From Lotus japonicus (taxonomy: Eukaryota; Streptophyta; Magnoliopsida; Fabales; Fabaceae), in assembly GCF_012489685.1 (NCBI RefSeq), contig NC_080042.1, positions 42,398,066-42,462,065 on the forward strand: a DNA stretch of 64,000 nt. Direction: 5' to 3'. Each line of letters starts with the position of its first letter. The stretch's first letter is position 1. Positions 2,580 to 60,254 of the stretch are shown here, in pieces. The position numbers were made by a program, and so were the translations under genes. The notes below the pieces were generated by a model. It did not search any database, was not told the origin of the DNA, and saw only the letters and a list, made by a program, of their open reading frames with translations.

Positions 2580-3381
2580 CCAAGAAATGAGAAAAAAACA
2601 CAAAAATCTTACCCATTTTCTCTCTTAAACCCGCGAGCTTCACAAGAGGAGGAGGAGAAGAGATTTTCTTCATTTCTTGCTTGGTCGTTGATTCAACAGT
2701 TGCTGCTTGAAGGTATCGAGGTATAGTCGCTAATCCTTACCTTTGATCGTCTTTTCCGTAACTTTTCTCTATGTCTTTCTGTGCTCATAGTTTTGAGGTT
2801 TTTGCAAAACTATCCTGATAACTTCATTTTTGATTCTAAACATCTTCCCTACGTGCCCAAGAGCATGTTTAGCTAATAATACTGCGCCGATTCTCGAAAA
2901 ACTACCGTCGAGTTTCAATTCTGCTTAAAATACCCATTTTGGGGCAAAGCTTCGTCCTTTGGGCTGAAAACTATCGCCTTAGCTTAGTGCTAGTAGGATT
3001 AGTTGTCATAAACGTCGTTGGTGACGTCCCCATCCAATTTGCTTTTCGAAATTTCAGTTTTGAAATTCTGAGCTAAAATATTGACCAAAATACCCCTACG
3101 ACAGTTTTCGATCCGATAATTTTTCCGAGTTTAGAATACCCTTAGTTACGACTAATAATAACCTAGGAACCAAGTTTGATCGAAGAAAAATCGACCCACC
3201 TAATTACCAATAGTGGCCGAGCACCCTAGGGGGGAGGGAGGAAAATTCCTTTTTCAAAAACTTGTCCTTTCGCGCTAGATTATCGTACCTCGGAGTATAT
3301 ACTACTTCGTGTAACCTTAGTGAGTACTGTTTGCTGAGTTTCTGATTCATTGTGATTGATTTCTGTGGTTTTGCTCTAAAG

Positions 3382-3459
3382 GTGCTTTTGAGGAATTTCC
3401 TGAAGAGCAAGGCATTGATTGTGAAGGAACGCTAGACGGGAACCCTGGAGAATCTTCAG
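3382..3459 (+). other. candidate 78-nt exon in A 5' LTR
   Basis: Lies between an acceptor-like CTCTAAAG and a donor-like GTGAGGGC. Read with two leading bases left for a phase-1 junction it is open and acidic (begins SFEE- or AFEE-like). The same segment with the same length occurs in every giant LTR of the window. Confidence 0.55.
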
Positions 3460-4893
3460 GTGAGGGCTACTCACTGAATCCTTAGTTAATGCTTAGGGTC
3501 GATGCTTTCGACATTGATTTACTGTTTATGCACTTGTGTGTGGTTGACTGGAAAAAATGTTTTCTGAGGCTTCGGCTGACAATGTAGATGATTCATCTAC
3601 TAATTGCTTTTGAGATTGAATTACATGGTACGTGCTAAGTGGGTAATCTAGGATGTGTGATGCATGCTTTATATGCTAAGTGCTACGTGATTATTCTAGA
3701 ATGTGTTGATATATGACATGTTTGTTGACTGTGCTGATTTACTTATGTCTTTTCAATGATATCTGTGATTCTGAGTAGTGAGGATAGCGGGCAGGTCATG
3801 CCGTTTTTATTTTGAGATTTTGGGGAAAGTTTGATAGGACGAATGAGATTCGGGCCTTGTTATGGTTATGATGGATCGAGACATTCTCGGGGAGTTTATT
3901 GGGATTGTGGGATGTTGAAAACTCATAAGAATTGCGATAAGACTAAAAGGATATTATTTTGTAAAGAAAACTCATAAGACATTAAACAACCTCTAAATCT
4001 TCAAATAATGATAACAAACTTGAAAGGAAGCTTAGGATTCAAATCCTAGTTTTGGGAAAACGAGAAGTGTCGTCGGATCCAAGTGTTGAGAAAGTTAATA
4101 ATTTGAGTATGTTGATACTCCTTTGCTCGTGGAGCAAGTTGTGTTGTTGGGCTATCCGAGGGATAAGCCAGGAAACAGGTAGTTTCCGAGTATGTTGATA
4201 CTCTTTGCTCGTTGAGCAGTTTCGACCATCGGATGGAGATGAGTCAGATGATTTGGAGATCATCATGAGATAATGTGTTGTTGTGAAGTGTTGTCTTTTG
4301 TCGCAGAATCGACTGTTACCTTAGGGTAAGCTTTTAGAGACATTAATTTAGCTAGAACACGTGGCGACGTGTCGAGTGAGGTCGGAGACGTTGTTTGACT
4401 AATCACTTTGCATTCATGCACCATTAATGAGGTATTAGCACGAGACGGACTTCGGACCTCGGTGGATTCCCAAATGGTCATAAGACCCGGATTTCCGCGT
4501 AAGAGCGCTAGTAGGCGACTCTTAGTAGCAGACCGAAATGGCAGACCTTCGGGTTTACTGCTGATCTGACTACCGTTGTTGTTGGTGTAAGAGGCACGCG
4601 GGCCGAAATGGTCCCACCGTGGCTGGTGTTAGGGCTGATCCGTTGATGTCCATCCCTTCCGGAATGCATTTGGTTAACTGGGTTAACCGTCATTTGCATA
4701 TCATGCAACATGCATACTAATTTAGTTGCTGAGTGTGATTGTTACTTGTTAATCCTATTTGGAACATGTTAATTTTTATTATTGTCGTCATATTCATTGT
4801 GGAATATACAACCCTAGGATGCTATCTCTAGCTATAAGCCTAAGTGGCTAATCTCTTATCTGTATCTATTGGTGATATTATTTACATAATTCT

Positions 4894-5165
4894 TTGGAGT
4901 TGACCCTCGCGTCTTCTGTGTGTGTTTTGGCAGACTACGCCCATTGTCAGATGTCTTTAGCGGACTGGTTCACGATGGTCCACCCTTCGGGGGGGACTAG
5001 ATACGAGATGATAGACCAGGATGACCCCGGTTCGTGGGTGGTAGACCCCGCTAACCATCGCGCGACGTACTCGGGGAGGATCATGGAGGATCGGGTAGAC
5101 AGAGTAGGACACTTGATGGAAGGAGTACTGAGGAGGAGCACTGTCAGTTTCAACTTGCCGCCAGG
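4894..5165 (+). pseudogene. LTR ORF of element A 5' LTR, N-terminal part (interrupted)
   Basis: First part of the protein read intact at 25102-25602 in the 3' LTR. The block from ADW through the GRIMEDR motif to LPPG is present, then element B cuts the frame. The C-terminal part, from VHCGPGLG onward, resumes at 16630-16891. Upstream, the 5' LTR reads GGCAG immediately before the ACTACG block, a potential splice acceptor; in the 3' LTR this AG has become GG. Confidence 0.75.
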
Positions 5166-5612
5166 TGTAACACCCCGATTTCGGTGGCGTCACTTTAGTA
5201 ACCAAAGAAATAACTTAAGCGGAAAAAGGTGAATTATTTTTTTTTGATAATGTAAGTAAAGACAGAAAGAGATGAAACTCTAAAACGAAGATAACAGAAC
5301 TAATATACAATATGATTACAGCCCCCACTGTAAGTTGTAAACCACGTCACGAGTAAACCTCCAGTGACGGAAAGTAAAAGAGAGTAATGCCCGTAGGCAA
5401 AAGTACAAACCAAGGTAAAAATACTGTGTCCGCAACACTAAACCTCAAAATCTGAGAACAAGTTGGCCCAGCGGCCTAAGAAAAGACCCCCTAAATCCAA
5501 CCAGCTCTCTGTGATCTCCATAGGAAACCACACAAAAAAAAACTACCGGTAGGAAACTACCCTGTCCCCAAAACTGAAGCATGACGGTCAGAGCATCGAC
5601 ACTACTCCTACA

Positions 5613-5741
5613 CTAATCCCATCTCGAGTAAGTCGCTCGGTGGCCAGCAGGGTCGACCGCCCCTGAACCGTAGTCCTCCTGATCAAGCTTCTTCAACCTA
5701 GTTTCCCCTGAAGGGTGAACCCTCGTGAACCGGTCCGCCAT
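5613..5741 (-). CDS. truncated LTR ORF (42 aa) in B 3' LTR
   Basis: Starts at ATGGCGGAC, the position equivalent to the ADW motif of the longer LTR ORF. It matches the longer protein for about 38 residues (VHPSG, VDPAGHRATYS), then jumps to DNA that lies after the stop codon in A and E, ending at RWD. The proline/acidic linker and C-terminal tail are deleted. Identical architecture occurs at 13488-13616 and 58601-58729. Whether a 42-aa peptide is made is unknown. Confidence 0.5.
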   Translation of the reverse strand: MADRFTRVHPSGETRLKKLDQEDYGSGAVDPAGHRATYSRWD

Positions 5742-7185
5742 ACTCAACTGACAATGGCGTAGTCCGCCCAAACACACACAGAAGACGCGAGGGTCAACTC
5801 CAAAGAATTATATAAATAATAAAACCAGATATATAGGGTAATAATTATTTAGCCTCTCAGGCTTATAAGTTTAGGGATAACATCCTAGGGTTGCATATTT
5901 CACAATGAATATAAAAGATCATAATAACAAGTAGCATGCCTCAAATAGGATAAACAGGTACCAATCACACTCAGCAGCTAAGTCAGCATGTATGTTGCAT
6001 GAAATGCAATGTTGGGTAACAAAATGCATTCCGGAAGAAGGATGGACACCATCGAGTCAGCCCTAACACCGGCCAAAGTGGGACCATTCCGCTCGGGCGT
6101 CTCTTACACCACACAAAAGTAGTCAGATCAGCAGTGAACCCGTAGGTCTGCCATTCCGTCTGCTACTGAGGACCACCGTAGTGTCCTAAATATGGAAATC
6201 CGGGTCTTATGACCATTTTGGAATCCACCGAGGTCCGGTAATCCGCCGTGTATTAACCTCAAAATGAGTGCATGAATGCAAGTGATTAGCCAAACAACGT
6301 CTCCGACCTCACTCGACACGTCGTCACGTGTTCTAGCTAACTTATTGTCTCTAAAAAGCCTACCCTAAGGCAAACGTCGATTCTGCGACAAAATGAATTA
6401 ATCAAAAAGAAGAAGAATGTACTTTGGAACTCATGGTTCCCGGCTAAACTTTAGATAGCCAATCAATAAACTGCTCATCGAGCGAAAAGGTACCGAAGTA
6501 CTTGGAAACTTATAGTCTCCGGCTAAACTTTAGATAGCCAAACATTAAACTGCTCATCGAGCGAAAAGAGTATCAACATACTCGAAAACTTGTAAGTTCC
6601 TCAAAACTTGGACTCGACGACACTTATCATATCTCCAAGACTAATATTCAGGCTCTAAGCTCTTATCTAAAGTTGTTATCATTGTTCAAGGGGTTTAGAG
6701 ATTGATTAATGTCTTATGAATTTTCTTTGAGAAAATAGATTTCGTTTAGTCTTATGATACTTCCTATGAGTTTCAGGGATCCCCTAATCCCAATTAATTT
6801 CTGAGAAGGTCTCGATCCATTAAAATATAACAAGGTCCGAACTTCGTTCGTCCTTTCAAACTCTCTCAAAATCTCATAAAAATTCGCCATGACTTGCCCG
6901 TAATCCTCACTTTCCAGAAACATAGGCACGAGTGGAATAGCATCAATGAAACAGCTCAACCAATAGGCATAAACAGCATATTCCAACACATCCTAAGTTA
7001 GCCATGTAGCACATAGCATGTGAATCATTTAGCACACAATATCATGGCATCAAGTACTCAACAAGTGCGGCCGAAGCCTCAGAAATCATTTCAGACATTT
7101 AGCAATTAGGTGCATAACACATAAATCAAGTCGAATTTCATCGACACCTAAAGCATTATCTAGTAATTCAGAGAGTAGCCCTCAC

Positions 7186-7263
7186 CTGTTGGTTTTCCAG
7201 CTCGCTCCTTGGACTTTCCTTCACAATCTTCCTCCTCAAGTCCTCCGAATTCCTCAAACGAAC
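7186..7263 (-). other. candidate 78-nt exon in B 3' LTR
   Basis: Exactly 78 nt between CTTTAAG and GTGAGGGC on the minus strand. It is open in the same phase as in A and encodes an acidic stretch (SFEEFGG, then EEEDCEG). Confidence 0.55.
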
Positions 7264-8747
7264 CTTAAAGCAATTTCACAGAAATCAATCACAATGAGTC
7301 AGAAACTCAGCAAACAATAAGTCCTAGGGTCACACGGAACACTACAACTCCGTGGTACGACAATCTAACGCGTTAGGACAAGTTTTCGAAAAAGTCGGAT
7401 TTCCTCCCCCCTTGGTATAGCTCTCGGCCACTTTCCTTAATTGGGAGGGTCGATTTTTCTTCGATCAAACTTGGTTCCTAGGTTAACATAAGCCGTAACT
7501 AAGACGGTTCTAGGCTCGGAAAAATTTTCGGATCGAAAACTGATATAGGGGCAGTTTGGTCATTATTTTTAGCTCAGAATTTCAAAATTGGATTTTTGAA
7601 AAACAAATTGGATGGGGACGTCCACAACGACGTTTATGACGACAAATCCTACTAGCACTAAGCCAAGTCGATAGATTAGAGCGTAAAGGTTGCGACTTTG
7701 CCGAAAAATGGGTATTTAGGGTAGAAATTGATCCCGGCGGCATTTCGTCGACATTTGACAAAATCTAATCCGCAGAACACGCTCAGGAGCATGCAGGGAA
7801 GAAGTTTAGACGCTGAAATCAGCTGATTTGAACAGTTTTTCAAAAACCTCAAAATTTTGAACTCAGAAAGTCGCAGGAGAAATGGACAGAAACGACGATT
7901 CGAAGGAGAGTATAGATTACCTACCTCGAGGTCTTCGATTAGTGACGATCGGTGAAGCAAACGGGCAAGAAACGACGAAGATCCGGATCTCTCTCTCTCT
8001 CTAGGAACTCGCGGTTTTGGGGGTGGGGAAAATGGGTTTTTTTGCAAAAAATCTAATTTTTCAAGCTATTTATAGGTTTTGGAAAAAACGGAAAAATGAT
8101 TTTTTTGCGATTCCGATTTTTCCTGCGCGTTCCTCTGCGCATTCTAAGATAGGTTCTGGCGACAGAATTCCAGAACTCAAAACAGGATTCTTGGAATTAA
8201 ACCAAAAGATCCAAAATCGGCATAAGTCGGTGTAAGTCGGTTTATCCCGAAAAACTACTTTTTGCAGTGATCGTCGGATGAGAAAACTTCCTTCTGAAGA
8301 AAGATTAGGAATGACGAGAGAAATAGGGGAACGCGGGTGGAATCTTCATTTGCAGCTCCCAATAGAAAAAGTCTTCATCGTCTGTCGATCTTAGGTTTCT
8401 CGAACTATCAGGGATTCTGTTTCGGCAAACTTCCGAGAATTGGAATTTGACGTTCGTACTTTCCAGAATTTCGCATCGAAATAATTGTTTAAGGACGGAA
8501 AAGAGAAGTTCTAACATTTCTCTGAGGATTTTTGGAATTAGTTTCCATCGTGTCCTAAAGCGTAAATTAACTATTCACTAATACCTTTGACCTAGGATTA
8601 GGCGTATGTTAGTCGTGCTATAACTCTTTCGGTTTTTCGATAAATTCTTGGACTTTTCCTGAACCTTTTTCCTTCCCAAATTTATCTTAATCAAATAACT
8701 CTTTTATTTTATTCACTTATCCAAAGCGTTAAAACTTGGGCCTTACA

Positions 8748-8765
8748 TTACTACCCTCCAAAAAG
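8748..8765 (-). other. polypurine tract of element B
   Basis: On the minus strand, TTTTTGGAGGGTAGTAA directly precedes the 3' LTR. Elements A (22024-22040) and C (61743-61760) have the same sequence. This is the expected plus-strand primer position. Confidence 0.8.
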
Positions 8766-8784
8766 AAAGTTTCGACCTCGAAAC

Positions 8785-10463
8785 TTATGGTTCAGTAAAA
8801 AGTTCTGGGTACTGTTCCTTGATCTTTTCCTTCAGCTCCCACGTCGCATCGCCGGTGTCCTTGTTCCAAATAACCTTCACTAACTCGATCTCTTTACCCC
8901 TCAACTGCTTTATCCTTGTGTCACCAATGCTGATTGGCGGTGTCTCGAAAGACAAGTTATCCTTCAACTCAATGTCATCCAGCTCGATAACATGTGTCGG
9001 ATCAGCAATATACTTCCTCAGTTGTGTCGCATGGAATACATCGTGAATGTTTGATAGAAAAGGCGGTAGTGCGATCTGATAAACTACCGGTCCTACACGA
9101 CGAGTAATCTGATAAGGTCCAATGAACTTTGGCGTAAGCTTTCTTGATTTGATTGCTCGACCAACTCCTGTAGTCTGAGTAACTCGCAGAAACACATGAT
9201 CTCCCTCTTCAAATTCCAGGGTTCTGCGCCTTTGATCTGCATAGCTCTTCTGTCTACTCTGAGAAGCCTTCATCTTCTCTCTGATCTGTTTAATCTTCTC
9301 AGTTGTCTGTTGCAGAAGTTCCGGTCCTACTAACAAATTCTCTCCATCTTGATACCAACATAAAGGTGTTCTACACTTGCGGCCATACAAAGCCTCATAC
9401 GGTGCCATACCTATGGTCGTATGAAAACTGTTGTTATATGTGAATTCAATCAGTGGCAATAGGGTATCCCAACTGCCCTTGTTGTCTAACACGCAAGCTC
9501 GTAGCAAATCCTCCAATGATTGGATAGTTCTCTCAGTTTGCCCATCAGTCTGTGGATGATAAGCAGAACTTAGTCTCAGCCTCGTTCCCAAAGCATTATG
9601 AATAGCTCCCCACAAATGTGAAGTAAACTTCGGGTCTCTATCGGAAACGATACTTGTTGGCACTCCATGAAGTCACACAATCTCAGCTATATAAATCTCT
9701 GATAGCTTATCCACGTTGTACGTAGTTCTCACAGGTATGAAATGAGCCGACTTAGTCAATCGATCCACGACTACCCAAATCGAATCATATCCTTTTTGAG
9801 TTCTTGGCAACGCCACGACAAAATCCATCGATATGCTATCCCATTTCCATTGAGGTACATCCAAACTTTGTAGCATACCCGAAGATTTCTGATGTTCCAC
9901 CTTCGCCTTTTGACAGATTAAACATGCAGCTACATATTCTGCCACTTGTCTCTTCATCCCTGGCCACCAAAATTCACCTTCAAGTCCTGATACATCTTTT
10001 TCATTCCAGGGTGAATGCTCAACTTGCTTTTGTGACCTTCGTCCATAATCAACCTCCTTAAGTCAGGGTTGTTAGGTACGCACACTCTATCCTTGCATCG
10101 CAGGATATTGTCACTCCCTACCTTGAATTCCGGTCCTTACCCTGAATTACTAAATTCTTATTTTCCGAGTAAAAATTCATCTTGTAACTGTTGGTCTCGG
10201 ATTTCTTCCATCAATCCATTGGTGATCTTGATCATCCCAAACTTCAGTTCTCCCTCAGATGCTCTCACATCTAAGCTCAAATCCCAAAACTGTTCCAGCA
10301 GTTGCAGCTCCTTAACCATCATTGATGAGATATGCATCTTCCTGCTCAATGCATCAGTAACGACATTAGCCTTTCCAGGATGGTATTGTAAGGTAAAATC
10401 GTAATCCTTGAGAAATTCCATCCAGTGTCGTTGTCTCATGTTCAACTCCTTCTGGTCAAACAA
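8785..10463 (-). pseudogene. pol remnant of B: end of RNase H, integrase, chromodomain
   Basis: Read from 10463 down: the C-terminal part of RNase H (DALSRK motif, with Thr before it where A has Ala), then the HHCC zinc-binding region, the integrase core, the GPY/F module ([10 protein letters not shown]) and a chromodomain-like end ([11 protein letters not shown] then TWELKEKI). Compared with the intact copy in element C, a single-base loss near 10131 and another near 9972 shift the frame, and a TGA lies at about 9670-9672 between the first and second catalytic aspartates. The last 292 codons (8785-9663) are open. RT and the first RNase H residues are absent altogether, replaced by unrelated-looking DNA. 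Confidence 0.9.
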
Positions 10464-12006
10464 GTACTTTAAGCTCTATGTCGTCCTGCTCGACCACTCG
10501 TGTCGGTTCTATGTTGGAAATAACATTGGTTGACGCTACGTGCAATTGCACAACCTTAACCACTTGATCCTTTACTTTTGTTCGTCCAAAAATTCTGCTT
10601 AAACTCAGTACACCTCTGGCATTCCAGAGTGAATGTTCAACCTGTCCTCGTGATCTCCACTCATGATTCAAAACTTAACTCGATCGCTCTATAGCTCATA
10701 GACGAACTATTCCCTTGGAATCTACTAGTCCATTAACGTCGATTCCAACTTCGTAACTATCCTCATTCGCACCATGAAATCAATCTTCTACTTAGTCATC
10801 ACTCAAAGTAAAACTCGACGTGAGTCTTAATACCTTGTGCATCGCTAGACCCAGTCCCCTTTTAACCTCCATTCATCAGCACTTATAAGCTAATCATCAT
10901 CTTAATATCTTACAATCCATCGTTGTCATCTCCCCTTTTTCGAGACTTCCCTTACTCGAACCATAAAACCAACCTTCACTTATTCACAACCCACTTTACA
11001 ATCACCTAAAATCCTTAACACTTCCCCCAAATCCGAACTTATTCCCTAGAAGATCAAACCATAGCTGTACCTCAGGAAACTTAACTAGTCATTTTATCAT
11101 CCGATCCCTCAACATTCGGAGGTTTAACTACAATCATTAATGCCAACACCACTAAATCTCTGATTCGAACATGATTTTCACCTCCCAAGGTCAATCTTAA
11201 CCCTTAAATCCTCACTTAACTTAGTGAAATTCACTTGCTAACCCCAGCATGCAATATCGGAATCCATAACCAAGTTCCATTCACTCTTAGACTCTAAGAA
11301 ATTTGTCCACATATAACAACCTCAAGTATTAATCTTGATACTAACTCTTTATTTCCGTAACTAGATCGTCCTCCCATCAATCCGATACTTAGTCTCTCGA
11401 TCAAAACCTGACAAACCTTGAGTCCTACGCACTTAAGACAAGAATTCATAGACTTAAAACCTAAACTTTCACCACGTTTGGACCTCAAATGTCCTTTAAT
11501 TCTTCAATACTTCTTAAATGAATATCCATTTCTTAAACTATAACTCCTCCCCAAGGAAATCAATTACTTAACAAAAACTTTACTTCCCGACTCCACTAAT
11601 CCTCGATCCAATCAAATTAATCTTACCAATCCATCTATCAAAGTCCATTGCCAGTTCTGATTCCGAATATCACCCCCTCAATATTAAGTTGATCAGGCCT
11701 AATACATCGAAGGTGAAGATTTAGAAAAACCCACTGGAACAGTCGATGAGTTCCTAACATCCAGTAGTCACAGAGATCTTGATATTAAATCCTCAATGAT
11801 GCCGCTACGGAACTACACGCTCTCGACATCATACATATACTATCCACACGGAATCTCCCTGAGATTCATCCTTCAGCTTCTAGCTTCTTGTTAAACGCAT
11901 CGGTGCAAAACTACTTTCTAGGCTTAACGTATTATTCTAAACCTCGTGTAACTTCTATAGTTTAAACACGAGCAACGGTCAAATAAAGTATTATTAGGCG
12001 TAATAA
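10464..12006 (-). other. replacement DNA in place of RT/protease in the B family
   Basis: About 1.5 kb that sits where element A has protease, RT and most of RNase H. It has no long frame. Its first 200 bp contain degenerate pol-like pieces: on the minus strand a DHEDRLNIHSGMPEVY-like string recalls the integrase zinc-finger region, and [14 protein letters not shown] recalls the pre-chromodomain linker. They stand in an order not found in an intact pol. Element C begins with the same sequence (63460-64000), so the replacement was fixed in the family before both copies inserted. Confidence 0.7.
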
Positions 12007-12843
12007 CTATAAAGTCAAAGCTCGACAGTAAAGGCAAGTTAGGTGTGTTGCACACGTTACGAGAGTATTGAAGCGTATTATACCGGAATGAGAAAGAATA
12101 GTTAGAAGGTTACCATCGTTATTGCGCTCTCCTCTGACTAGTCGACCAGCTCCCTCGCCGCACGAGATATAGACTCCTCCCCGTGCAGCAGGATGTCTTC
12201 CTCTTACCGTAGGCACAGATGGCTCAACCCTGGTTACATTGCAATCCTTGGCTTGATGCCCCGGGCGATTGCAGTTAAAACATAGAGGTCTCCCGTCTGG
12301 ACACTTGTTAGAGTGGTGCCCCACCTTCTTGCACCTGTAACACGTTACTTGCTTCCTCGCCCCTTTAGATATGGCAGGAAGTTTACCCTTCATCTTGTTG
12401 TCAGACGGTCCCGCTTGGAACGTCCTACAGTTCACGGCCAAATGTCCACGTTGTTTGCACTTGAAGCATTGTGGTCCAGTCACTGAGCACTGAAAGGCGT
12501 AGTGTCCAAGTCTCCCACAACGGTAGCATGTCACAGCCTCCTGGAAATTAGTTGCGGTCGTTAACTTGCGTGATCCTGGGGTAGGGTCTCTTCCCTCGGG
12601 ATGCTGGTATGGCTTCCACTGCCGGTACTCCTGTGGATCTGACCTCACTGGTCCTCCAGCTCCAGCTCGATCCAATCCACTATGCTGGTACTTGGACGCC
12701 TCGATTAGCGGTTGAGGTCGTTCACGTGCAGCCTCCTCAGCGCGTCTGTAAGCGTCCTCAGCAGCCTGATTCATCATTGCCTCAATCATGGTAGCTATTG
12801 CCTTTGCCATCCTGTCAGGGCTTACCATCCTATGCTTAGTCAA
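12007..12843 (-). pseudogene. gag remnant of B: nucleocapsid with four CCHC knuckles, no capsid
   Basis: 278 codons. Residues 1-50 match the start of a chromovirus gag (an Ala/Glu-rich helix). The capsid domain seen in element A is missing. Four CX2CX4HX4C zinc knuckles follow at residues 106-119, 126-139, 168-181 and 188-201, against two in A. After the knuckles comes the protease region, but the usual D-[ST]-G-A catalytic motif is not there: the matching stretch reads ILSHSGIIRFN. The product could in principle bind nucleic acid but not assemble a particle or cut a polyprotein. Position next to the primer binding site supports the assignment. Confidence 0.82.
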
Positions 12844-13024
12844 ACAAACAGTTAGTACTCATCATCGGATAGCATCTAACATACTATACAATATGATCAA
12901 GCAATAACTTCAATCAATTCTAAGCGAGAAATCGCTTGGCAGACAATCAATTTTTTCTCTTTGTAGAGTCACACAACCTAGCACAGAAGACCTATTCCCC
13001 AAAGACTCCCGAAAGACTCGACAA

Positions 13025-13036
13025 GCTCTGATACCA
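13025..13036 (-). other. primer binding site of element B
   Basis: On the minus strand TGGTATCAGAGC follows the 5' LTR by three bases; it complements the 3' end of initiator tRNA-Met, the usual primer of this class. Confidence 0.85.
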
Positions 13037-13487
13037 CAATGTAACACCCCGATTTCGGTGGCGTCACTTTAGTAACCAAAGAAATAACTTAAGCGGAAAA
13101 AGGTGAATTATTTTTTTTTGATAATGTAAGTAAAGACAGAAAGAGATGAAACTCTAAAACGAAGATAACAGAACTAATATACAATATGATTACAGCCCCC
13201 ACTGTAAGTTGTAAACCACGTCACGAGTAAACCTCCAGTGACGGAAAGTAAAAGAGAGTAATGCCCGTAGGCAAAAGTACAAACCAAGGTAAAAATACTG
13301 TGTCCGCAACACTAAACCTCAAAATCTGAGAACAAGTTGGCCCAGCGGCCTAAGAAAAGACCCCCTAAATCCAACCAGCTCTCTGTGATCTCCATAGGAA
13401 ACCACACAAAAAAAAAACTACCGGTAGGAAACTACCCTGTCCCCAAAACTGAAGCATGACGGTCAGAGCATCGACACTACTCCTACA

Positions 13488-13616
13488 CTAATCCCATCTC
13501 GAGTAAGTCGCTCGGTGGCCAGCAGGGTCGACCGCCCCTGAACCGTAGTCCTCCTGATCAAGCTTCTTCAACCTAGTTTCCCCTGAAGGGTGAACCCTCG
13601 TGAACCGGTCCGCCAT
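13488..13616 (-). CDS. truncated LTR ORF (42 aa) in B 5' LTR
   Basis: Same 42-codon frame as at 5613-5741, from ATGGCGGAC to the TAG just after the deletion junction at CTCGAG. See that entry for the comparison. Confidence 0.5.
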   Translation of the reverse strand: MADRFTRVHPSGETRLKKLDQEDYGSGAVDPAGHRATYSRWD

Positions 13617-15060
13617 ACTCAACTGACAATGGCGTAGTCCGCCCAAACACACACAGAAGACGCGAGGGTCAACTCCAAAGAATTATATAAATAATAAAAC
13701 CAGATATATAGGGTAATAATTATTTAGCCTCTCAGGCTTATAAGTTTAGGGATAACATCCTAGGGTTGCATATTTCACAATGAATATAAAAGATCATAAT
13801 AACAAGTAGCATGCCTCAAATAGGATAAACAGGTACCAATCACACTCAGCAGCTAAGTCAGCATGTATGTTGCATGAAATGCAATGTTGGGTAACAAAAT
13901 GCATTCCGGAAGAAGGATGGACACCATCGAGTCAGCCCTAACACCGGCCAAAGTGGGACCATTCCGCTCGGGCGTCTCTTACACCACACAAAAGTAGTCA
14001 GATCAGCAGTGAACCCGTAGGTCTGCCATTCCGTCTGCTACTGAGGACCACCGTAGTGTCCTAAATATGGAAATCCGGGTCTTATGACCATTTTGGAATC
14101 CACCGAGGTCCGGTAATCCGCCGTGTATTAACCTCAAAATGAGTGCATGAATGCAAGTGATTAGCCAAACAACGTCTCCGACCTCACTCGACACGTCGTC
14201 ACGTGTTCTAGCTAACTTATTGTCTCTAAAAAGCCTACCCTAAGGCAAACGTCGATTCTGCGACAAAATGAATTAATCAAAAAGAAGAAGAATGTACTTT
14301 GGAACTCATGGTTCCCGGCTAAACTTTAGATAGCCAATCAATAAACTGCTCATCGAGCGAAAAGGTACCGAAGTACTTGGAAACTTATAGTCTCCGGCTA
14401 AACTTTAGATAGCCAAACATTAAACTGCTCATCGAGCGAAAAGAGTATCAACATACTCGAAAACTTGTAAGTTCCTCAAAACTTGGACTCGACGACACTT
14501 ATCATATCTCCAAGACTAATATTCAGGCTCTAAGCTCTTATCTAAAGTTGTTATCATTGTTCAAGGGGTTTAGAGATTGATTAATGTCTTATGAATTTTC
14601 TTTGAGAAAATAGATTTCGTTTAGTCTTATGATACTTCCTATGAGTTTCAGGGATCCCCTAATCCCAATTAATTTCTGAGAAGGTCTCGATCCATTAAAA
14701 TATAACAAGGTCCGAACTTCGTTCGTCCTTTCAAACTCTCTCAAAATCTCATAAAAATTCGGCATGACTTGCCCGTAATCCTCACTTTCCAGAAACATAG
14801 GCACGAGTGGAATAGCATCAATGAAACAGCTCAACCAATAGGCATAAACAGCATATTCCAACACATCCTAAGTTAACCATGTAGCACATAGCATGTGAAT
14901 CATTTAGCACACAATATCATGGCATCAAGTACTCAACAAGTGCGGCCGAAGCCTCAGAAATCATTTCAGACATTTAGCAATTAGGTGCATAACACATAAA
15001 TCAAGTCGAATTTCATCGACACCTAAAGCATTATTTAGTAATTCAGAGAGTAGCCCTCAC

Positions 15061-15138
15061 CTGTTGGTTTTCCAGCTCGCTCCTTGGACTTTCCTTCACA
15101 ATCTTCCTCCTCAAGTCCTCCGAATTCCTCAAACGAAC
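15061..15138 (-). other. candidate 78-nt exon in B 5' LTR
   Basis: Same as 7186-7263, flanked by AG and GTGAG on the minus strand. Confidence 0.55.
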
Positions 15139-15941
15139 CTTAAAGCAATTTCACAGAAATCAATCACAATGAGTCAGAAACTCAGCAAACAATAAGTCCT
15201 AGGGTCACACGGAACACTACAACTCCGTGGTACGACAATCTAACGCGTTAGGACAAGTTTTCGAAAAAGTCGGATTTCCTCCCCCCTTGGTATAGCTCTC
15301 GGCCACTTTCCTTAATTGGGAGGGTCGATTTTTCTTCGATCAAACTTGGTTCCTAGGTTAACATAAGCCGTAACTAAGACGGTTCTAGGCTCGGAAAAAT
15401 TTTCGGATCGAAAACTGATATAGGGGCAGTTTGGTCATTATTTTTAGCTCAGAATTTCAAAATTGGATTTTTGAAAAACAAATTGGATGGGGACGTCCAA
15501 AACGACGTTTATGACGACAAATCCTACTAGCACTAAGCCAAGTCGATAGATTAGAGCGTAAAGGTTGCGACTTTGCCGAAAAATGGGTATTTAGGGTAGA
15601 AATTGATCCCGGCGGCATTTCGTCGACATTTGACAAAATCTAATCCGCAGAACACGCTCAGGAGCATGCAGGGAAGAAGTTTAGACGCTGAAATCAGCTG
15701 ATTTGAACAGTTTTTCAAAAACCTCAAAATTTTGAACTCAGAAAGTCGCAGGAGAAATGGACAGAAACGACGATTCGAAGGAGAGTATAGATTACCTACC
15801 TCGAGGTCTTCGATTAGTGACGATCGGTGAAGCAAACGGGCAAGAAACGACGAAGATCCGGATCTCTCTCTCTCTCTAGGAACTCGCGGTTTTGGGGGTG
15901 GGGAAAATGGGTTTTTTTTGCAAAAAATCTAATTTTTCAAG

Positions 15942-15951
15942 CTATTTATAG
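15942..15951 (-). promoter_or_regulatory. TATA box of element B 5' LTR
   Basis: CTATAAATAG on the minus strand, the 5' LTR copy and so the one that would drive B. A purine/CT-rich leader and a donor-like GAG/GTAGGT (about 15800) follow. Confidence 0.55.
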
Positions 15952-16624
15952 GTTTTGGAAAAAACGGAAAAATGATTTTTTTTGCGATTCCGATTTTTCC
16001 TGCGCGTTCCTCTGCGCATTCTAAGATAGGTTCTGGCGACAGAATTCCAGAACTCAAAACAGGATTCTTGGAATTAAACCAAAAGATCCAAAATCGGCAT
16101 AAGTCGGTGTAAGTCGGTTTATCCCGAAAAACTACTTTTTGCAGTGATCGTCGGATGAGAAAACTTCCTTCTGAAGAAAGATTAGGAATGACGAGAGAAA
16201 TAGGGGTACGCGGGTGGAATCTTCATTTGCAGCTCCCAATAGAAAAAGTCTTCATCGTCTGTCGATCTTAGGTTTCTCGAACTATCAGGGATTCTGTTTC
16301 GGCAAACTTCCGAGAATTGGAATTTGACGTTCGTACTTTCCAGAATTTCGCATCGAAATAATTGTTTAAGGACGGAAAAGAGAAGTTCTAACATTTCTCT
16401 GAGGATTTTTGGAATTAGTTTCCATCGTGTCCTAAAGCGTAAATTAACTATTCACTAATACCTTTGACCTAGGATTAGGCGTATGTTAGTCGTGCTATAA
16501 CTCTTTCGGTTTTTCGATAAATTCTTGGACTTTTCCTGAACCTTTTTCCTTCCCAAATTTATCTTAATCAAATAACTCTTTTATTTTATTCACTTATCCA
16601 AAGCGTTAAAACTTGGGCCTTACA

Positions 16625-17389: not shown

Positions 17390-17585
17390 ACGGTTGAGTC
17401 TTTCGGGAGTTGTTGGGGAATAGGTCTTCTGTGCTAGGTTGTGTGACTCTGCAAAGAGTGAAAATTGATTGTCTGCAAGCGATTTTTCGCTTAGAATTGA
17501 TTGAAGTTATTGCTTAATTATATTGTATAGTTTGCTAGATCCTATCTTATGATAAGTACTAACTGTTTGTTTCACTTAACAGAAC

Positions 17586-18958
17586 ATGGTGAATACTAAC
17601 CAGTTAGCTGAGATGATGGCCACTATGACCCAAGCTGTGACAACGCAAGCAAACGATAATGCTATGAGGCGTGCTGCTGAAGAAGCACGTGATCAGCATC
17701 AACGCCAGAGGGAAGTAACTCTTGACCAGAACAAAGGCCTGAATGATTTCAGGAGGCAAAATCCACCAAAGTTCTCGGGTGGTACTGACCCAGACAAAGC
17801 GGATCTCTGGATCCAGGAGGTTGAGAAGATATTCGGCGTTCTGCAGACTGTTGAGGGTGCCAAAGTGGGCATGGCGACTTATCTACTGCTCGGTGATGCT
17901 GAGTACTGGTGGAAGGGCACCAGGGGGATCATGGAAGCCAACCATGAAGAGATCAACTGGAATCTTTCCGGACCGCGTTCTTGGAAAAGTATTTTCCAAC
18001 AAGTGCCCGGGATGAGCGGGAGGCACAGTTTCTGACACTCCGTCAAGGAGGTATGTCTGTACCAGAATTTGCTTCGAAGCTGGAGTCTTTGGCGAAGCAT
18101 TTTCAATTCTTTAATGATCATGTCGATGAGCGCTACATGTGCAAGCGTTTTGTTAATGGACTGAGGCCTGATATTGAGGACTCAGTGAGGCCTCTAGGAA
18201 TCATGCGTTTCTAGTCCTTGATTGAGAAAGCCACGGAAGTGGAACTGATGAAGAACCGGAGGATGAACCGTGCTGGAACTGGAGGGCCGATGAGGTCGGG
18301 CTCTCAAAACTTTCAAGGCAGAGGGAAAATTCAGAACCGGAGGCCGTATCAACGTCCTGCTGGGAGAGGGTTTGCTTCAGGATCTTACAGACCCATGACG
18401 GGTGCTGCTAGTGGTTCTGGAGATCAGACTCAGAACAGGGAGTTGACTTGCTTCAAGTGTGGGAAGCCGAGGCATTTTGCTCGTGCTTGTCCCGACACGA
18501 GACCCCAATGCTTCAATTGTAACAAATTGGGGCATACTGCTGCACAGTGCAGGGCACCCAAGACGGAACCAACCGTCAACACCGCTCGTGGAAAGCGTCC
18601 TGCTGCAAAGGCGAGAGTCTACACCATGGATGGTGAAGATGCTGAAGGGGTCGATGGGCTGATTAGAGGAGACTGCGAGATTGACGATAATCTCCTATCC
18701 GTACTTTTTGATTTCGGTGCAACGCATTCATTTATCTCTAGAGAATGTGCGACCAGATTAAGACTTCCTATTACTGCTTTGAGCTTCGATCTTATAGTTA
18801 CCACTCCTGCCAAGACTCTACTTGCTAACACGACATGTATGTACTGTCCGATAACATATAACAATAGAGTCTACCATGCTAACCTAGTATGCCTAACTCT
18901 TAAGAACCTAGATGTTATCCTAGGAATGGAATGGTTGTCCCACTATCATTGTCTTTAG
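17586..18958 (+). pseudogene. gag-protease region of element A (broken)
   Basis: Begins at ATG 17586 with an Ala/Arg/Gln-rich helix, then the capsid region (NPPKFSGG, about 17756; ADLWIQEVEKIF, about 17800) and a basic linker. Two CCHC knuckles follow (CFKCGKPRHFARAC at 18449 and CFNCNKLGHTAAQC at 18509). The aspartic protease follows with catalytic-loop sequence LFDFGATHSF, where most relatives have Ser or Thr after the Asp, and ILGMEW near the end. Breaks: a one-base loss near 17964 ends the first frame at 18035, a TAG lies at about 18212-18214 and another at 18956-18958. An intact gag would give the particle shell and package RNA; this copy cannot. Confidence 0.9.
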
Positions 18959-23558: not shown

Positions 23559-23636
23559 GTACTTTTGAGGAATTTCCTGAAGAGCAAGGCATTGATTGTG
23601 AAGGAACGCTAGACGGGAACCCTGGAGAATCTTCAG
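23559..23636 (+). other. candidate 78-nt exon in A 3' LTR
   Basis: Same 78-nt segment as 3382-3459 with one visible substitution near its start, flanked by CTCTAAAG and GTGAGGGC. Confidence 0.55.
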
Positions 23637-25101: not shown

Positions 25102-25602
25102 TTGGCGGACTACGCCCATTGTCAGATGTCTTTAGCGGACTGGTTCACGATGGTCCACCCTTCGGGGGGGACTAGATACGAGATGATAGACCAGGATGAC
25201 CCCGGTTCGTGGGTGGTAGACCCCGCTAACCATCGCGCGACGTACTCGGGGAGGATCATGGAGGATCGGGTAGACAGAGTAGGACACTTGATGGAAGGAG
25301 TACTGAGGAGGAGCACTGTCAGTTTCAACTTGCCGCCAGGAGTACACTGCGGACCAGGATTAGGAGCACCGCCACCACCGTCATCTTCGGATGATGAGGA
25401 ACCCTCAGATGAGGAGCCTGTGGGAGTGCATTCTTCAGAGTCCAGCACACCCACCGTTGCTATCATTGATGATCATGGTTCGGGCCCAAAGCCCGTGAGT
25501 CCAGCACCGGAGCGCATCGCAGTTGCGAGGGGAGGACGGATAGTGTTTATAGACTTGGTCGTTCTGGATTCAGATTCAGACGACGATCATGCTAGCATGT
25601 AG
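25102..25602 (+). CDS. intact ORF inside the LTR of element A (166 aa, unknown protein)
   Basis: I do not recognise a family. The N-terminal block (residues 10-75) contains SLADWF, SGGTRYEMIDQD, SWVVDPANHRATYSGRIMEDR and SFNLPPG. A proline run (PPPPSSSDDEE, about 90-100) opens an acidic Ser/Thr-rich linker. The C-terminus is IVFIDLVVLDSDSDDD (147-162), hydrophobic residues then Asp/Ser, resembling a SUMO-interacting motif. E encodes a 160-aa relative with the same three parts, so the frame is kept between diverged LTRs. No signal peptide or membrane segment. The track start lacks a Met-rich context; a splice junction or the Met near the ADW motif may be the true beginning. It is neither gag nor pol and would be made from an LTR transcript. 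Confidence 0.6.
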   Translation: MADYAHCQMSLADWFTMVHPSGGTRYEMIDQDDPGSWVVDPANHRATYSGRIMEDRVDRVGHLMEGVLRRSTVSFNLPPGVHCGPGLGAPPPPSSSDDEEPSDEEPVGVHSSESSTPTVAIIDDHGSGPKPVSPAPERIAVARGGRIVFIDLVVLDSDSDDDHASM

Positions 25603-29301: not shown

Positions 29302-30169
29302 TTTTTTTTTTGTTCCATCGGAAAATTAGACAAGCAAAACAAACTAACTACAAGAAAACGAGTCCCTCAGGGTAAAAGGTTCAACTTCCGCCGGAGGTCT
29401 CTCAAAAAACTTAACGCCTACAGAATCCCAACCCATACCCAGTGTAAGACCCAAGTTTTTAAGTTTTGGATAAGGGAATAAAATACAAGAGTTTATTGGA
29501 TGAAATAAATTTATGAAAGAGAAGGTTCAGGAAAAGTCCAAGGATTATATCAAAACCGATAAAAGTTATAGCACGACTAACGTTCGCCTAATCTTAGGTC
29601 GAAGACCCTAGTGAATAGTTAATTTATACTTTAGGACACGATCGAAACTAATTCCAAAAAAACCTCAGAGAAATATTAGAATTTCTCTTATTCGTCTATA
29701 AACAAGTATTTCGACGCGAAACCCTGGAACGTACGAACGTCAAATTCCAATTCTCGGAAGTTTGCCGAAACGGAATCCCTGATAGTTCGAGAAACCTAAG
29801 ATTGACGGACGATGAAGACTTTTTCTATTCGGAGCTTCAAATGAAGATTCCACCCGCGTTCGCCTATTTCTCTCGTTATTTCTAATCTTTCTTCAGAAGG
29901 AAGTTTTCTCATCCGACATCCACTGCAAAAAGTAACTTATCGGGTAAAATAGTTTTACACCGACTTTGCGTTAGTCACCTAAAATACAAGGAAACCTCTG
30001 TTGAGTTTTGGAATTCTGTCGCCAAAACCTATCTTAGAACTCACGGAGAATGAAGCCGGAAAAATAGGAATCATTCTTATATTTTTATTTTAACTCTATG
30101 AGTTAAATCCTCCGGTATCTAAACTAATCTGTACCGGTTTACAAAATATCTTCTCAAAATATCTCCCTA

Positions 30170-30375
30170 AAATATCTATTCGTTCTTATCCAGTCTTTGA
30201 TAAATATCTATTCATTCTTATCCAATCTTTGATAAATATCTATTCGTTCTTATCCAATCTTTGATAAATATCTATTCGTTCTTATCCAATCTTTGATAAA
30301 TATCTATTCGTTCTTATCCAATTTCTGATAAATATCTATTCAACCTTATCCGATCCTTGATAAATATCTACTCAT
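30170..30375 (+). repeat. 32-bp minisatellite upstream of the TATA box of LTR E
   Basis: About six copies of a unit containing GATAAATATCTATTCGTTC followed by TTATCCAATC. LTR I has the same type of array (about 55575-55690) with a slightly different unit. A, B, C and H lack it. It sits just before the TATA box, where a copy-number change could alter promoter strength. Confidence 0.85.
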
Positions 30376-30509
30376 CCTTATCTAATCTCTACAAAATATC
30401 TTTACAAAATATCTTTACCAAAATATCTTCTCAAAAATATCTATCCATCCTTATCCATCCACCAATGCATCCTTATCCAAACTTTGCAAAATATCTCCAT
30501 TTCCTTCAC

Positions 30510-30518
30510 TATATATAG
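30510..30518 (+). promoter_or_regulatory. TATA box of LTR E
   Basis: TATATATAG shortly after the minisatellite. A purine-rich leader (about 30585-30600) and a donor-like GAG/GTAGGT (about 30664) follow. Confidence 0.55.
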
Positions 30519-31328
30519 GTTATAAGCTAGAAAATGAAAATTTTGCAAAACTCACCCATTTCTTTCCCCAAAACCGCGGCCAAGAGAGGAGAAGGGGAGG
30601 AAGTTGATCTTCGCGAATTCTTGCCCGTTTGCTTCACCGATCGTTGCTAATCGAAGACCTTGAGGTAGGTAAACTATATCTCTCTTCTGATCGTCGTTTC
30701 TGTCGACTTCTCCTAAGTCTTTATGTGTCCAAAGTTTTGAGGTTTTTGGAAAATTGTCCAAATAGCTTGATTTCTTTGTCTAAACATCTTCCCTACGTGC
30801 TCAGGAGCACTTCTGTCGGATTAGTTTTTTCGTAATGTCGCCGGAATTCCGCCGGAATCAATTCTACCTCAAATACCCATTTTGGGGCAAAGTCTCAATC
30901 TTTTAGCTTAGAACTCTCGACTTGGCTTAGTGCTAGTAGGATTAGTTGTCATAAACGTCGTTGTTAACGTCTCCATCCAATTTGTTTTTCAAAAATCCAG
31001 TTTTGAAATTCTGAGTTTAAAATAATGACCAAACTACCCCTATGTCAGTTTTCGATCCGAAAATTTTTCCGAGCTTAGAACCGTCTTAGTTACGGCTTAT
31101 GTTAACCTAGGAACCAAGTTTGATCGAAGAAAAATCGACCCTCCCAATTAAAGGAAGTGGCCGAGAGCTATATCAAGGGGGGGGGGGGAAGAATCCGATT
31201 TTTCGAAAACTTGTCTTAACGCGTTAGATTGTCGTACCACGAAGTTTGTAGTGTACCGTGTAACCCTAGGACTCTTTGATTGCTGAGTTTCTGACTCTTG
31301 GTGTTGATTTCTGTGAATTTTGCTTAAG

Positions 31329-31406
31329 GTTCTTTTGAGGAGGTTCCTGGAGAACCAGGAGAAGAGCGTGAAGGACACTTTGAGGAGGAAGCTGGAAGAC
31401 CCACCG
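31329..31406 (+). other. candidate 78-nt exon in LTR E
   Basis: Between TGCTTAAG and GTGAGGGC. It encodes SFEEVPGEPGEEREG and on, open in the shared phase. Its middle differs clearly from A, yet the length is identical. Confidence 0.55.
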
Positions 31407-32184
31407 GTGAGGGCTACTCTCTGAATTACTAGATAATGCTTTAGGTGTCGACGAATTCGACTTGATTTATGTGTTATGCACTTAATTGCTAAATGTCTGA
31501 AATGATTTCTGAGGCTTCGGCCGATCTTGTTGAGTACTTGATGCCATGATATTGTGTGCTAAATTATTCACATGTTATGTGCTAAATGGTTAATCTAGGA
31601 TGTGTTGGAATATGCTGTTTATGTTTATTGATTGAGCTGATTTATTTATGTTACTCCACTTATATCTGCTATGCTTCAGAGTGAGGATAACGGGCATGTC
31701 ATGCCGATTTTATTTTGAGATTTTGGGAAAGTTTGATGGGACGGACCGAGGTTCGTACCCTGTTATTGTTTTTTTTTTTTTTTTTGGATCAAGACCTTCT
31801 CAAGGAAAATGAGTTTGAAAATGATATTGGAAAAACCCCATTTGAATTCACGTAAGAACTTGGGTTGTTCTGTCTAAGGCAAGAAGGGCTTTTAATGAGG
31901 CATTGTGCCCGGCCAGCTTACCTGGGAACTTCTCGGGCCATTACTTGGGTGATGATGGACCTTTTGTTTTGAGACCATCACCAGGGAATCATTGGAATTA
32001 TGGGATCTTTGGAACTAATAGGATTAGAGACGAAACTTAAACAATTTCATAATGAACCTCCATAATGTATTAAACAACCTCAAAACCCTTAATATAATGA
32101 TAAAAGACTCAGACGAAAGTTTAGGGCTTGAACATAAGTGTTTTGAAAATGAGAAGTGTCGGCAAATCCAAGATTAGGAGAAAC

Positions 32185-32420
32185 TCATAAGTTTCCGAGT
32201 ATGCTTATACTCTTCGCTCGATGAGCAGTTTATTGTTTGGCTATCTAAAGTTTAGCCGGAGACTATAAGTTTCCAAGTACTTCAGTACCTTTTCGCTCGA
32301 TGAGCAGTTTATTGTTTGGCTATCTAAAGTTTAGCCGGAGACTATAAGTTTCCAAGTACTTCAGTACCTTTTCGCTCGATGAGCAGTTTATTGATTGGCT
32401 ATCTAAAGTTTAGCCGGGAA
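32185..32420 (+). repeat. three 79-bp hairpin repeats in LTR E
   Basis: Unit starts at 32216, 32295 and 32374. Each begins with the inverted repeat GCTCGATGAGC and contains GGCTATCTAAAGTTTAGCC, also self-complementary. Minus-strand relatives lie in B (about 6470-6570), the B 5' LTR and C (about 59455-59560). Confidence 0.85.
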
Positions 32421-33076
32421 CCATGAGTTCCAAAGTACATTCTTCTTCTTTTGATTAATTCATTTTGTCGCAGAATCGACGTTTGCCTTAGGGTAGGCTT
32501 TTTAGAGACAATAAGTTAGCTAGAACACGTGACGACGTGTCGAGTGAGGTCGGAGACGTTGTTTGGCTAATCACTTGCATTCATGCACTCATTTTGAGGT
32601 TAATACACGGCGGATACCGGACCTCGGTGGATTCCAAAATGGTCATAAGACCCGGATTTCCATATTTAGGACACTACGGTGGTCCTCAGTAGCAGACGGA
32701 ATGGCAGACCTACGAGTTTACTGCTGATCTGACTACTTTTGTGTGGTGTAAGAGGCGCCCGAGCGGAATGGTCCCACTTTGGCCGGTGTTAGGGCTGACT
32801 CGATGGTGTCCATCCTTCTTCCGGAATGCATTTTGTTACCCAGCATTGCATTTCATGCAACATACATGCTGACTTAGTTGCTGAGTGTGATTGGTACCTG
32901 TTTATCCTACTTGAGGCATGCTAATTGTTATTATGATCTTTATATTCATTGTGATATATGCAACCCTAGGATGTTATCCCTAAACGTATAAGCCTGAGAG
33001 GCTAAATAATTATTACCCTATATATCTGGTTTTATTATTTATATAATTCTTTGGAGTTGACCCTCGCGTCTTCTGT

Positions 33077-33559
33077 GTGTGTTTGGGCGGACTACGCCAT
33101 TGTCAGTTGAGTATGGCGGACTGGTACGAGACGGTCGTCCCTTCGGGGGGGACCAGGTTTGAGATGTTGGACCAAGACACCCCAAGCTCATGGGTGGTCG
33201 ACCCCGCCGGCCACCGAGCTATCTATTCAGGGCGAATAATGGAGGATCGCATTGACCGGATGCCAAGCCTGACGCACGGAGTCTGGAGGCACTACACTAT
33301 CAGCTTCAACTTGCCACCGGGTGTACACTGCGGACCTGGACTGGGAGTGCCACCACCACCGTCGCCTTCGGACGACGAGTACCCCTCGGAGGAGGTGCCT
33401 GTGGGAGGGACTTCTTCAGGCACTAGTTCACCCACTGTCGCGGCTGCTATAGACTTGGGATCGGGTGCAGAACCCGCTCGACCAGCTGTGGAGACCGATG
33501 CAGTCATCGACATAGTCGTCTTGGATTTAGATTCAGACGACGATCTTGGGGATGCATAG
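33077..33559 (+). CDS. intact ORF inside LTR E (160 aa), homologue of the A LTR ORF
   Basis: Relative of 25102-25602 with matching order: SMADWYETVVPSGGTR, then SWVVDPAGHRAIYSGRIMEDR, then SFNLPPGVHCGPGLG, a PPPPSPSDDE linker and the tail IDIVVLDLDSDDD. Two starts are possible: 33077, or the ATG at 33113 directly before GCGGACTGG, which B and C share and which I prefer unless the transcript is spliced. Many differences from A change the third codon base or substitute similar residues, and no stop has arisen over 160 codons. Function unknown. Confidence 0.6.
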   Translation: MCLGGLRHCQLSMADWYETVVPSGGTRFEMLDQDTPSSWVVDPAGHRAIYSGRIMEDRIDRMPSLTHGVWRHYTISFNLPPGVHCGPGLGVPPPPSPSDDEYPSEEVPVGGTSSGTSSPTVAAAIDLGSGAEPARPAVETDAVIDIVVLDLDSDDDLGDA

Positions 33560-34019
33560 TTGGGATTAGTGTAGGAGTAGCGTCTTGGCTCTGATGTTCA
33601 GTCTTTCGTTTTGGGCAGGCTAGGTCCCCGACTTTTAGCTTTTCTTGTGGTTCTCTTTACGGAAATCACTGAGAGTTGGTTGGACTAGGGGGTCTTGTTT
33701 TAGGCCATCTGGGCTGACTTATTCTCATTTTGAGGGTTTGTGTTGCAGACACTTAACCTTTTCTTTTGGATTGTACCTTTTGCCTTCGGGCGTTACTCTA
33801 TTTTGCTGTCCGTCACTGGAGGGTTACTCGTGACGTGGTTTACTACTTACAGCGGGGGCTGTAACTATTATTGTATATTAGTTTTGTTATCTTCTGTTGT
33901 CAAGCTCTATTTCTTTCAGTTTTAATTTTGTATTATCGAGAAAAAAAATATTCACGTTTTTCCGCATTAAGTATTTCTTTTGGTTACGAAAGTGACGCCA
34001 CCGAAATCGGGGTGTTACA

Positions 34020-53277: not shown

Positions 53278-53355
53278 CTGTAGATTCTCCAGGGTTGTCC
53301 TCGAAAGTTCCTTCACAACCAGCTCCTTGTTCTTCAGAGAATTCTTCAAAAGAAC
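53278..53355 (-). other. candidate 78-nt exon in LTR H
   Basis: Minus strand, between TAAAG and GTGAGGGC. It encodes SFEEFSEEQGAGCEG and on, in the shared phase. Confidence 0.55.
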
Positions 53356-56633: not shown

Positions 56634-56711
56634 ATTCGTTTGGAGGAACACTTGGAGCAGGAAAAGAGGATTGTGAAGGAGCCTTGCTTGAACACACTGG
56701 ACGAGTTCGAG
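56634..56711 (+). other. candidate 78-nt exon in LTR I
   Basis: Between CTCAAAG and GTTAGGGC. It is the most diverged copy (begins SFGGTLGAGKEDCEG) but still 78 nt and open in the same phase. Confidence 0.5.
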
Positions 56712-60176: not shown

Positions 60177-60254
60177 CTGTAACTCCTCCAGCGTTTTCCT
60201 CACAACCTCCTTCACGTTCCTCGCCTTGATCTCCAGGAAACTCCTCAAAAGAAC
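60177..60254 (-). other. candidate 78-nt exon in C LTR
   Basis: Minus strand, between CTTAAG and GTGAGGGC. It encodes SFEEFPGDQGEEREG and on, closer to E than to B in this segment. Confidence 0.55.

Follow-up and report, generated by a model that had tools for sequence, protein, structure and literature searches.

The window, a 64-kb stretch of Lotus japonicus DNA, contains Ty3/gypsy elements with long terminal repeats (LTRs) of ~4 kb. The Ty3/gypsy type is indicated by paired LTRs and by matches to RVP_2, RVT_1, RT_RNaseH, Integrase_H2C2 and SH3_Tf2-1, scanned as domains of separate ORFs from different elements; rve was matched only below its cut-off. The tail of the region at 61783–63177 presumably resembles the integrase C-terminus of a Tekay chromovirus, and no Pfam match to a chromodomain, the mark of Tekay at that terminus, was found in this region. 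Eight LTR copies, labeled A to H, are present. Copies A and D are the 5′ and 3′ LTRs of one element (A/D) and copies B and C are the two LTRs of another (B/C), so that the eight copies represent only six lineages. Element B/C (5166–16624) is nested at position 5166 in the open reading frame carried by the LTR of copy A (the LTR ORF), with CCAGG as the target repeat, and copy H is nested in copy G. Copy E is a solo LTR (29443–34019) with the 5-bp direct repeat CCCAG on both sides. This solo LTR retains the TATA, the exons described below and an intact LTR ORF, and it is adjoined by opposite-strand ORFs that may encode a LINE reverse transcriptase.

Each of the eight LTRs has exactly 78 nt between an AG and a GT, and the initial annotation had placed this segment correctly in every copy. 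The segment, referred to here as exon 2, lies at 3382–3459 in copy A (forward strand; free of ATG, with a TAG in phase 0), 7186–7263 in copy B (reverse strand), 15061–15138 in copy C (reverse strand; identical to B over the 78 nt), 23559–23636 in copy D (forward strand; one difference from A), 31329–31406 in copy E (forward strand), 53278–53355 in copy F (reverse strand), 56634–56711 in copy G (forward strand) and 60177–60254 in copy H (reverse strand). The donor context is GTGAGGGC in seven of the eight copies, including A, and GTTAGGGC in copy G. As had also been claimed, no indel is present: the eight-row alignment has zero gaps within the 78 nt. Taken alone, a constant distance from a conserved AG to a conserved GT is not striking. 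Nine gap-free pairs of AG and GT separated by 30–300 nt are conserved in all six lineages, this segment included, and four of them have lengths that are multiples of three; 284 of 1,435 other 78-column windows of the LTR alignment are also gap-free. The gap-free state at such divergence is less usual, by what is a soft test. None of the 112 windows that are at least as divergent as the segment in the six lineages is gap-free, these windows being overlapping and non-independent, and 23 of 162 are gap-free when the most distant lineage, G, is left out. The segment also differs in composition from its surroundings, with a T content of 18–26% relative to 36–45% in the flanks. A role for RNA structure within the 78 nt was rejected, as folding of the segment alone in six copies gave no greater stability than that of shuffled sequences (z of −0.91 to 0.62).

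Three queries were used to search the host genome, namely copy A, the intron next to B and the intron next to E, and the best 40 scored of 4,101 (A-type), 2,003 (B-type) and 1,806 (E-type) candidates were considered. The A- and B-type rows include the window's own copies, and the E-type set consists of 39 fetched loci of the 40 listed plus copy E. Across these three subfamilies, the segment is exactly 78 nt long in 108 of 110 sampled rows, and both the AG and the GT ends are kept in 109. All of the best 40 A-type candidates have AG, GT and 78 nt. Among these rows an indel is present in the exon in none, compared with 0, 2, 7 and 2 rows for the neighboring 78-column windows on the left and 3, 12 and 3 rows for those on the right. 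The same AG, GT and 78 nt are found at all 30 B-type loci fetched of the best 40 listed, where the exon has only three sequences, each of the same type as copy B with at most two differences. Of the 40 E-type rows, all keep the AG, 39 keep the GT and 38 keep the length; the two rows of other length have a 1-nt deletion and a deletion that runs through the donor. The depletion of indels proposed from the window copies therefore extends to genomic copies, only two of the 110 rows deviating, which is far from the many indel-bearing copies that would have spoken against it. Continuing hypermutation specific to the exon was considered and rejected, since variability in the exon of recent copies does not exceed that of the flanks: in A-type rows, collected with a query that included the exon, π is 0.037 for the exon and 0.029–0.064 for the flanks.

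Three Lotus protein models, P0003, P0004 and P0006, contain the segment, and in each the GT of the segment is the exact point of its junction with the LTR ORF. The junctions (marked by a slash here and below) are ..RRKLEDPP/MSMADW.. in P0003 and ..TLEELQ/MSMADW.. in P0004, with the join to exon 3 made at CAG/. The segment is read in phase 0 in P0003 and P0004 and, in P0006, in the phase favored by the initial annotation (SFEE phase, after the described beginning of its peptide). These three are among seven named Lotus models seen; P0002 is without exon 2, and P0011–P0013 start at MSM(A/V). The genomic copy that corresponds to P0003 (on C6) encodes 26/26 residues of exon 2 and 158/158 residues of exon 3 in the same LTR, exon 2 ending ..GACCCACCG/GTGAGG and exon 3 starting TTGTCAG/ATGAGT 1.5 kb on. 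For P0006 (on C1), 25/25 residues of exon 2 after AAG/ and 151/151 residues of exon 3 are likewise encoded in one LTR. Because exons 2 and 3 reside together in this way, the idea that P0003 and P0006 are artefactual chimeras was discarded. The genomic codon before ATGAGTATG is CAG at all 10 loci fetched of 150 listed, so that the P of P0003 requires a splice. At the other end, the codons that precede exon 2 (..CTT AAG; ..TAA G) do not yield the M-Q and A-G of the models, a misfit that makes the AG end appear to be a junction as well. The residues with which P0003 and P0006 begin were absent from the 2 kb and 7 kb read, and they are not those of the predicted exon 1 either, which leaves the exon 1–exon 2 junction putative. 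Together, the public protein models, possibly ab initio, and the DNA give strong indirect support to splicing of the 78-nt segment. The internal exon that had been proposed is thus supported, indirectly, by the models, the T contrast and the near-absence of indels, and it is probably real; the coding phase assigned to it has not been established.

Exon 3 carries the LTR ORF. In copy A, exon 3 (4951–5165, forward strand) has its ATG right after ..TTGTCAG/ and is interrupted by element B/C at 5166; an extra CAG ending at 4932 could serve as an acceptor in this copy. The coding part is intact in copy D (25126–25602, forward strand), with 158 codons and a stop (MSLADWF...DSDSDDDHASM). In copy E, the coding part (33107–33559, forward strand) follows ..GTCAG/TTGAGT ATG GCG, with the stop at 33559. 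In copy B (5613–5747, reverse strand) the LTR ORF is short (LSMADRF...YSRWD), with 42 codons from the ATG and a stop. The two LTRs of element B/C are 5 substitutions apart in the aligned part; this near-identity, with an LTR ORF of only 42 codons, suggests that a long LTR ORF is not needed in cis for recent movement. The LTR ORF is a constrained gene: comparison of copies D and E, a single pair, gives a dN of 0.26 and a dS of 1.14 (dN/dS of about 0.23), and no stop is present in 145 of the best-scored 150 genome matches to P0003 (of 9,065 candidates). In A-type copies, exon 3 could be read at 29 of 32 loci (two had no match and one had no exon 3 start); exon 3 opens with the ORF's ATG in 29/29 and the acceptor AG is present in 28/29, and the LTR ORF is intact in only 6/29. 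Relatives of the LTR ORF in Lotus japonicus are 66–84% identical to that of copy D, and one of them equals that of copy E at 134/135 residues. No relatives were found in the viral and bacterial contigs searched, and the structure model of the LTR protein is of low confidence (pLDDT of 44). A more distant LTR-ORF family, consisting of Lotus models P0011–P0013 and environmental P0010 and P0014, has a common LPPSV.CGPGTG core and an acidic tail. The proposed intron 2 (3460–4950) contains a second strong acceptor-like site, TTTTGTCGCAG/AATCGAC, whose AG ends at 4306 in copy A; the site is conserved in seven aligned copies and was not seen in G. A further exon at this site is possible.

Upstream of exon 2, a TATA and a donor-like (G or A)AG/GTA are aligned across the copies. 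In copy A, the putative leader exon 1 is placed at 2602–2720 (forward strand), with its start assumed to lie 32 nt after the TATA start at 2570 and with GAG/GTA as the donor. Exon 1 as predicted is ATG-free in all eight copies. In the six lineages, the predicted exons 1 and 2 have no ATG in 1,188 nt, for which shuffling predicts 20.6, and exon 2 alone has none relative to 10.0; by column permutation, the zero in exon 2 has p = 0.0012 for six exon types and p = 0.0005 for ten. Among genomic rows, an ATG is present in exon 2 of 1/40 A-type and 1/40 E-type rows. The first 500 nt of intron 2, in contrast, is ATG-rich (118 vs 68 by shuffling). Intron 1 is also ATG-poor (32 vs 70 by shuffling), so the scarcity of ATG is not confined to exons. 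Exon 2 is most likely part of the untranslated start of the predicted message rather than the source of an acidic peptide. In both elements with a gag start in the window, TACTAAC, a T-rich tract and an AG are followed by the gag ATG 1 or 3 bases on. At 17580–17588 (forward strand) in one of these elements, AAC separates an acceptor-like CAG from the gag ATG (17586), with a TACTAAC upstream at 17557; element B/C has an acceptor-like AG and the gag ATG at 12826–12831 (reverse strand), after a TACTAAC at 12857. TACTAAC alone is found at 14 places in the window. Perhaps the leader is spliced to gag as well.

The coding potential of the 78 nt was evaluated in ten exon types, a chosen set made up of the six window lineages and four types from the E-type set, in which further close variants exist. 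The initial annotation had described one open phase with an SFEE-like beginning and an acidic product. This phase is open in all eight window copies, but three of them have a peptide that starts AFEE, TFEE or SFGG. Phase 0 provides a second frame that is free of stops in six of the eight and is interrupted by a TAG in the copies at 3382 and 23559. The net charge is −4 to −8 except in the copy at 56634, which is nearly neutral (−1). A coding exon in the SFEE phase would produce a short acidic peptide from a start upstream of, and outside, the predicted exon 1, and the frame would end in overlap with the LTR ORF at the beginning of exon 3. This we regard as unlikely, although the frame is open in 10/10 exon types (p = 0.008, column permutation, best of three frames), a property that a leader role does not require, and a stop interrupts it in only 1/40 A-type and 0/40 E-type rows. 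Its pN/pS is 0.71 in all ten types (p = 0.09) and 0.59 in eight (p = 0.06), the length of 78 nt persists in the L086 type despite differences from L087 at 39/78 positions, and P0006 reads this frame together with an exon further upstream. Against these points, the predicted exons 1 and 2 lack an AUG in all window copies, so that given this exon 1 none of the eight copies offers a same-transcript AUG from which exon 2 could be reached, and the last exon 1 codon in this frame is TGA in E and H. Beyond the junction the frame also departs from the ORF and, in each of the six copies with an exon 3, meets a stop 16–18 codons into that exon; the return of P0006 to the ORF frame depends on a G-run of 9 bases, compared with 7 in copy E. 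A codon-class test of this phase gives p = 0.99 for ten types and p = 0.23 for five lineages. The SFEE-phase coding exon is therefore not established. Reading the segment in phase 0, as in the annotations of P0003 and P0004, would instead extend the LTR protein at its N terminus by a helix-like piece (V-L-L-R..VKE...LE). This frame is free of stops in 8/10 exon types, joins the ORF without a shift and shows slightly more replacement than silent change in three of four close pairs. However, this ORF-joining frame contains a stop in 39/40 copies of the A-type, an amplified family, and in the L086 type, its pN/pS is 0.99 in the ten exon types, and an ATG already opens exon 3 in 29/29 readable A-type copies, which together make a phase-0 coding exon improbable.

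It is also quite unlikely that the segment is not an exon at all and is instead a purine-rich LTR element (a DNA or RNA binding site, for example) whose ends resemble splice sites and which gene prediction has taken up. Conserved gap-free AG...GT pairs are not rare in the LTR, as the nine in six lineages illustrate, the models that favor an exon may be ab initio, and intron 1 shares the scarcity of ATG. A non-exonic element would nevertheless have to accommodate three models at separate gene names that pick the same GT end, the contrast in U content between exon and flanks, and the lack of ATG in exons 1 and 2 next to an ATG-rich start of intron 2. We therefore favor, with reasonable but not high confidence, the explanation that the 78-nt segment is an AUG-free 5′-leader exon of a gene located wholly inside the LTR.

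The divergence of exon 2 among otherwise similar LTRs has its own pattern. When B, E and H are compared, the right intron differs at 0–2 of ~106 sites, the left intron at 11–23 of ~200 sites and the exon at 18–30 of 78, and the exon divergence stops at the GT. Copies D and F show this more weakly (exon 16/78, left intron 23/202, right intron 4/107). Over the four close pairs, the right intron differs by 0–4%, the left intron by 5–12% and the exon at 16–30/78 positions, with the edge at the GT. Rows selected by the E left intron alone carry several exon types, with π of 0.115 in the exon, 0.013 on the left and 0.064 on the right; without four of these rows, the values are 0.063, 0.010 and 0.035. 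One row (L115) has an H-like exon, with 3 differences from H and 17 from E. In L086 and L089, an E-like left intron is followed by a foreign exon and right flank with a G-like donor, the break being ~5 nt upstream of the AG. In the P0006 copy, a B-like exon 2, at 4 differences from B and 27 from E, is combined with an E-like exon 3 (134/135 residues). Such mixed pairings of exon and background call for recombination. Divergence also peaks at exon 1 and the start of intron 1, in mid intron 2 and from exon 3 onward, so the borders of exon 2 are not the sole breakpoints, and recent A- and B-type copies have no excess of divergence in the exon. Between 1864 and 26085, the LTR copies diverge in patches along their entire length, as expected of mosaics. 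Exon 2 as a reassortable module, with exchange bounded by its own splice sites, is a doubtful proposition. Gene conversion by spliced cDNA, or selection on the mature mRNA to escape RNA silencing, would in either case confine change to exons. Positive selection driven by a protein was set aside as an explanation of the exon divergence: over 15 pairs, pN/pS is 1.00 in phase 0 and 0.75 in the SFEE phase, and silent sites having changed about as much overall, no such selection is needed.

As a leader exon, the segment would function as follows. Transcription is proposed to start after the TATA box in the LTR, and leader exon 1, ending GAG/GTA, would be followed in the message by the 78-nt exon 2. 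The start codon of the LTR ORF would lie at the beginning of exon 3 or a few bases into it, and removal of the AUG-rich introns would make the ORF's own AUG the first. In the full-length element, the same leader is probably also spliced to the acceptor just before the gag AUG and would then skip the LTR ORF. Recombination would exchange divergent exon 2 types among LTR backgrounds, such that the length of 78 nt is kept and the sequence varies. The anatomy of the sequence, the lack of AUG, the constraint on the LTR ORF, the mosaic copies and the gene models with these junctions are observed; the splicing itself, the exon 1–exon 2 and gag junctions, and the untranslated status of exon 2 we infer.

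The sag gene of MMTV is an accessory retroviral gene in the LTR (U3) that is reached by splicing, and its leader is not known to form an internal exon in the same LTR. The likeness to the proposed Lotus LTR gene is that of an accessory gene in an LTR reached by splicing; MMTV is an animal retrovirus, and no relation is claimed. Splicing of plant retrotransposon RNAs is already known, as are additional ORFs in such elements. No description of an internal exon within a plant LTR was found in the literature searched, whose coverage leaves most subscription papers outside. In the available portions of the reports on Ogre, BARE1, EVADE and Bagy-2, splicing of element RNA yields extra mRNAs beside the genomic RNA (PMC3735527, PMC12786077, PMC7264820, PMC6317226). 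The likeness is the spliced RNA, which in Lotus is proposed from DNA and protein models. As far as described there, the introns of these elements are located inside the gag, pol and env-like parts or between them, whereas the Lotus LTR itself contains the ORF together with the proposed introns and internal exon. Among the additional ORFs of plant elements, the 5′aORFs of Tekay chromoviruses are conserved within their group and their protein is predicted to be largely disordered, according to the part of the source available (PMC11728184). Compared by description, they and the Lotus LTR ORF are alike in lying 5′ of gag and outside gag-pol, and their predicted disorder is akin to the low-confidence model of the Lotus LTR protein. 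Unlike the Tekay 5′aORFs as described, the Lotus ORF is inside the LTR, so that each element has two copies of it and solo LTRs have it as well.

If confirmed, this arrangement would place an entire spliced gene in each LTR, including solo LTRs, of a large family of plant retrotransposons. An AUG-free leader would bypass kilobases of AUG-rich LTR, which would explain how gag is translated in elements with 3-kb leaders. It would also give the LTR introns a function and explain why LTR copies are annotated as Lotus genes. Finally, the mosaic exon types provide a natural test of how retroelements recombine.
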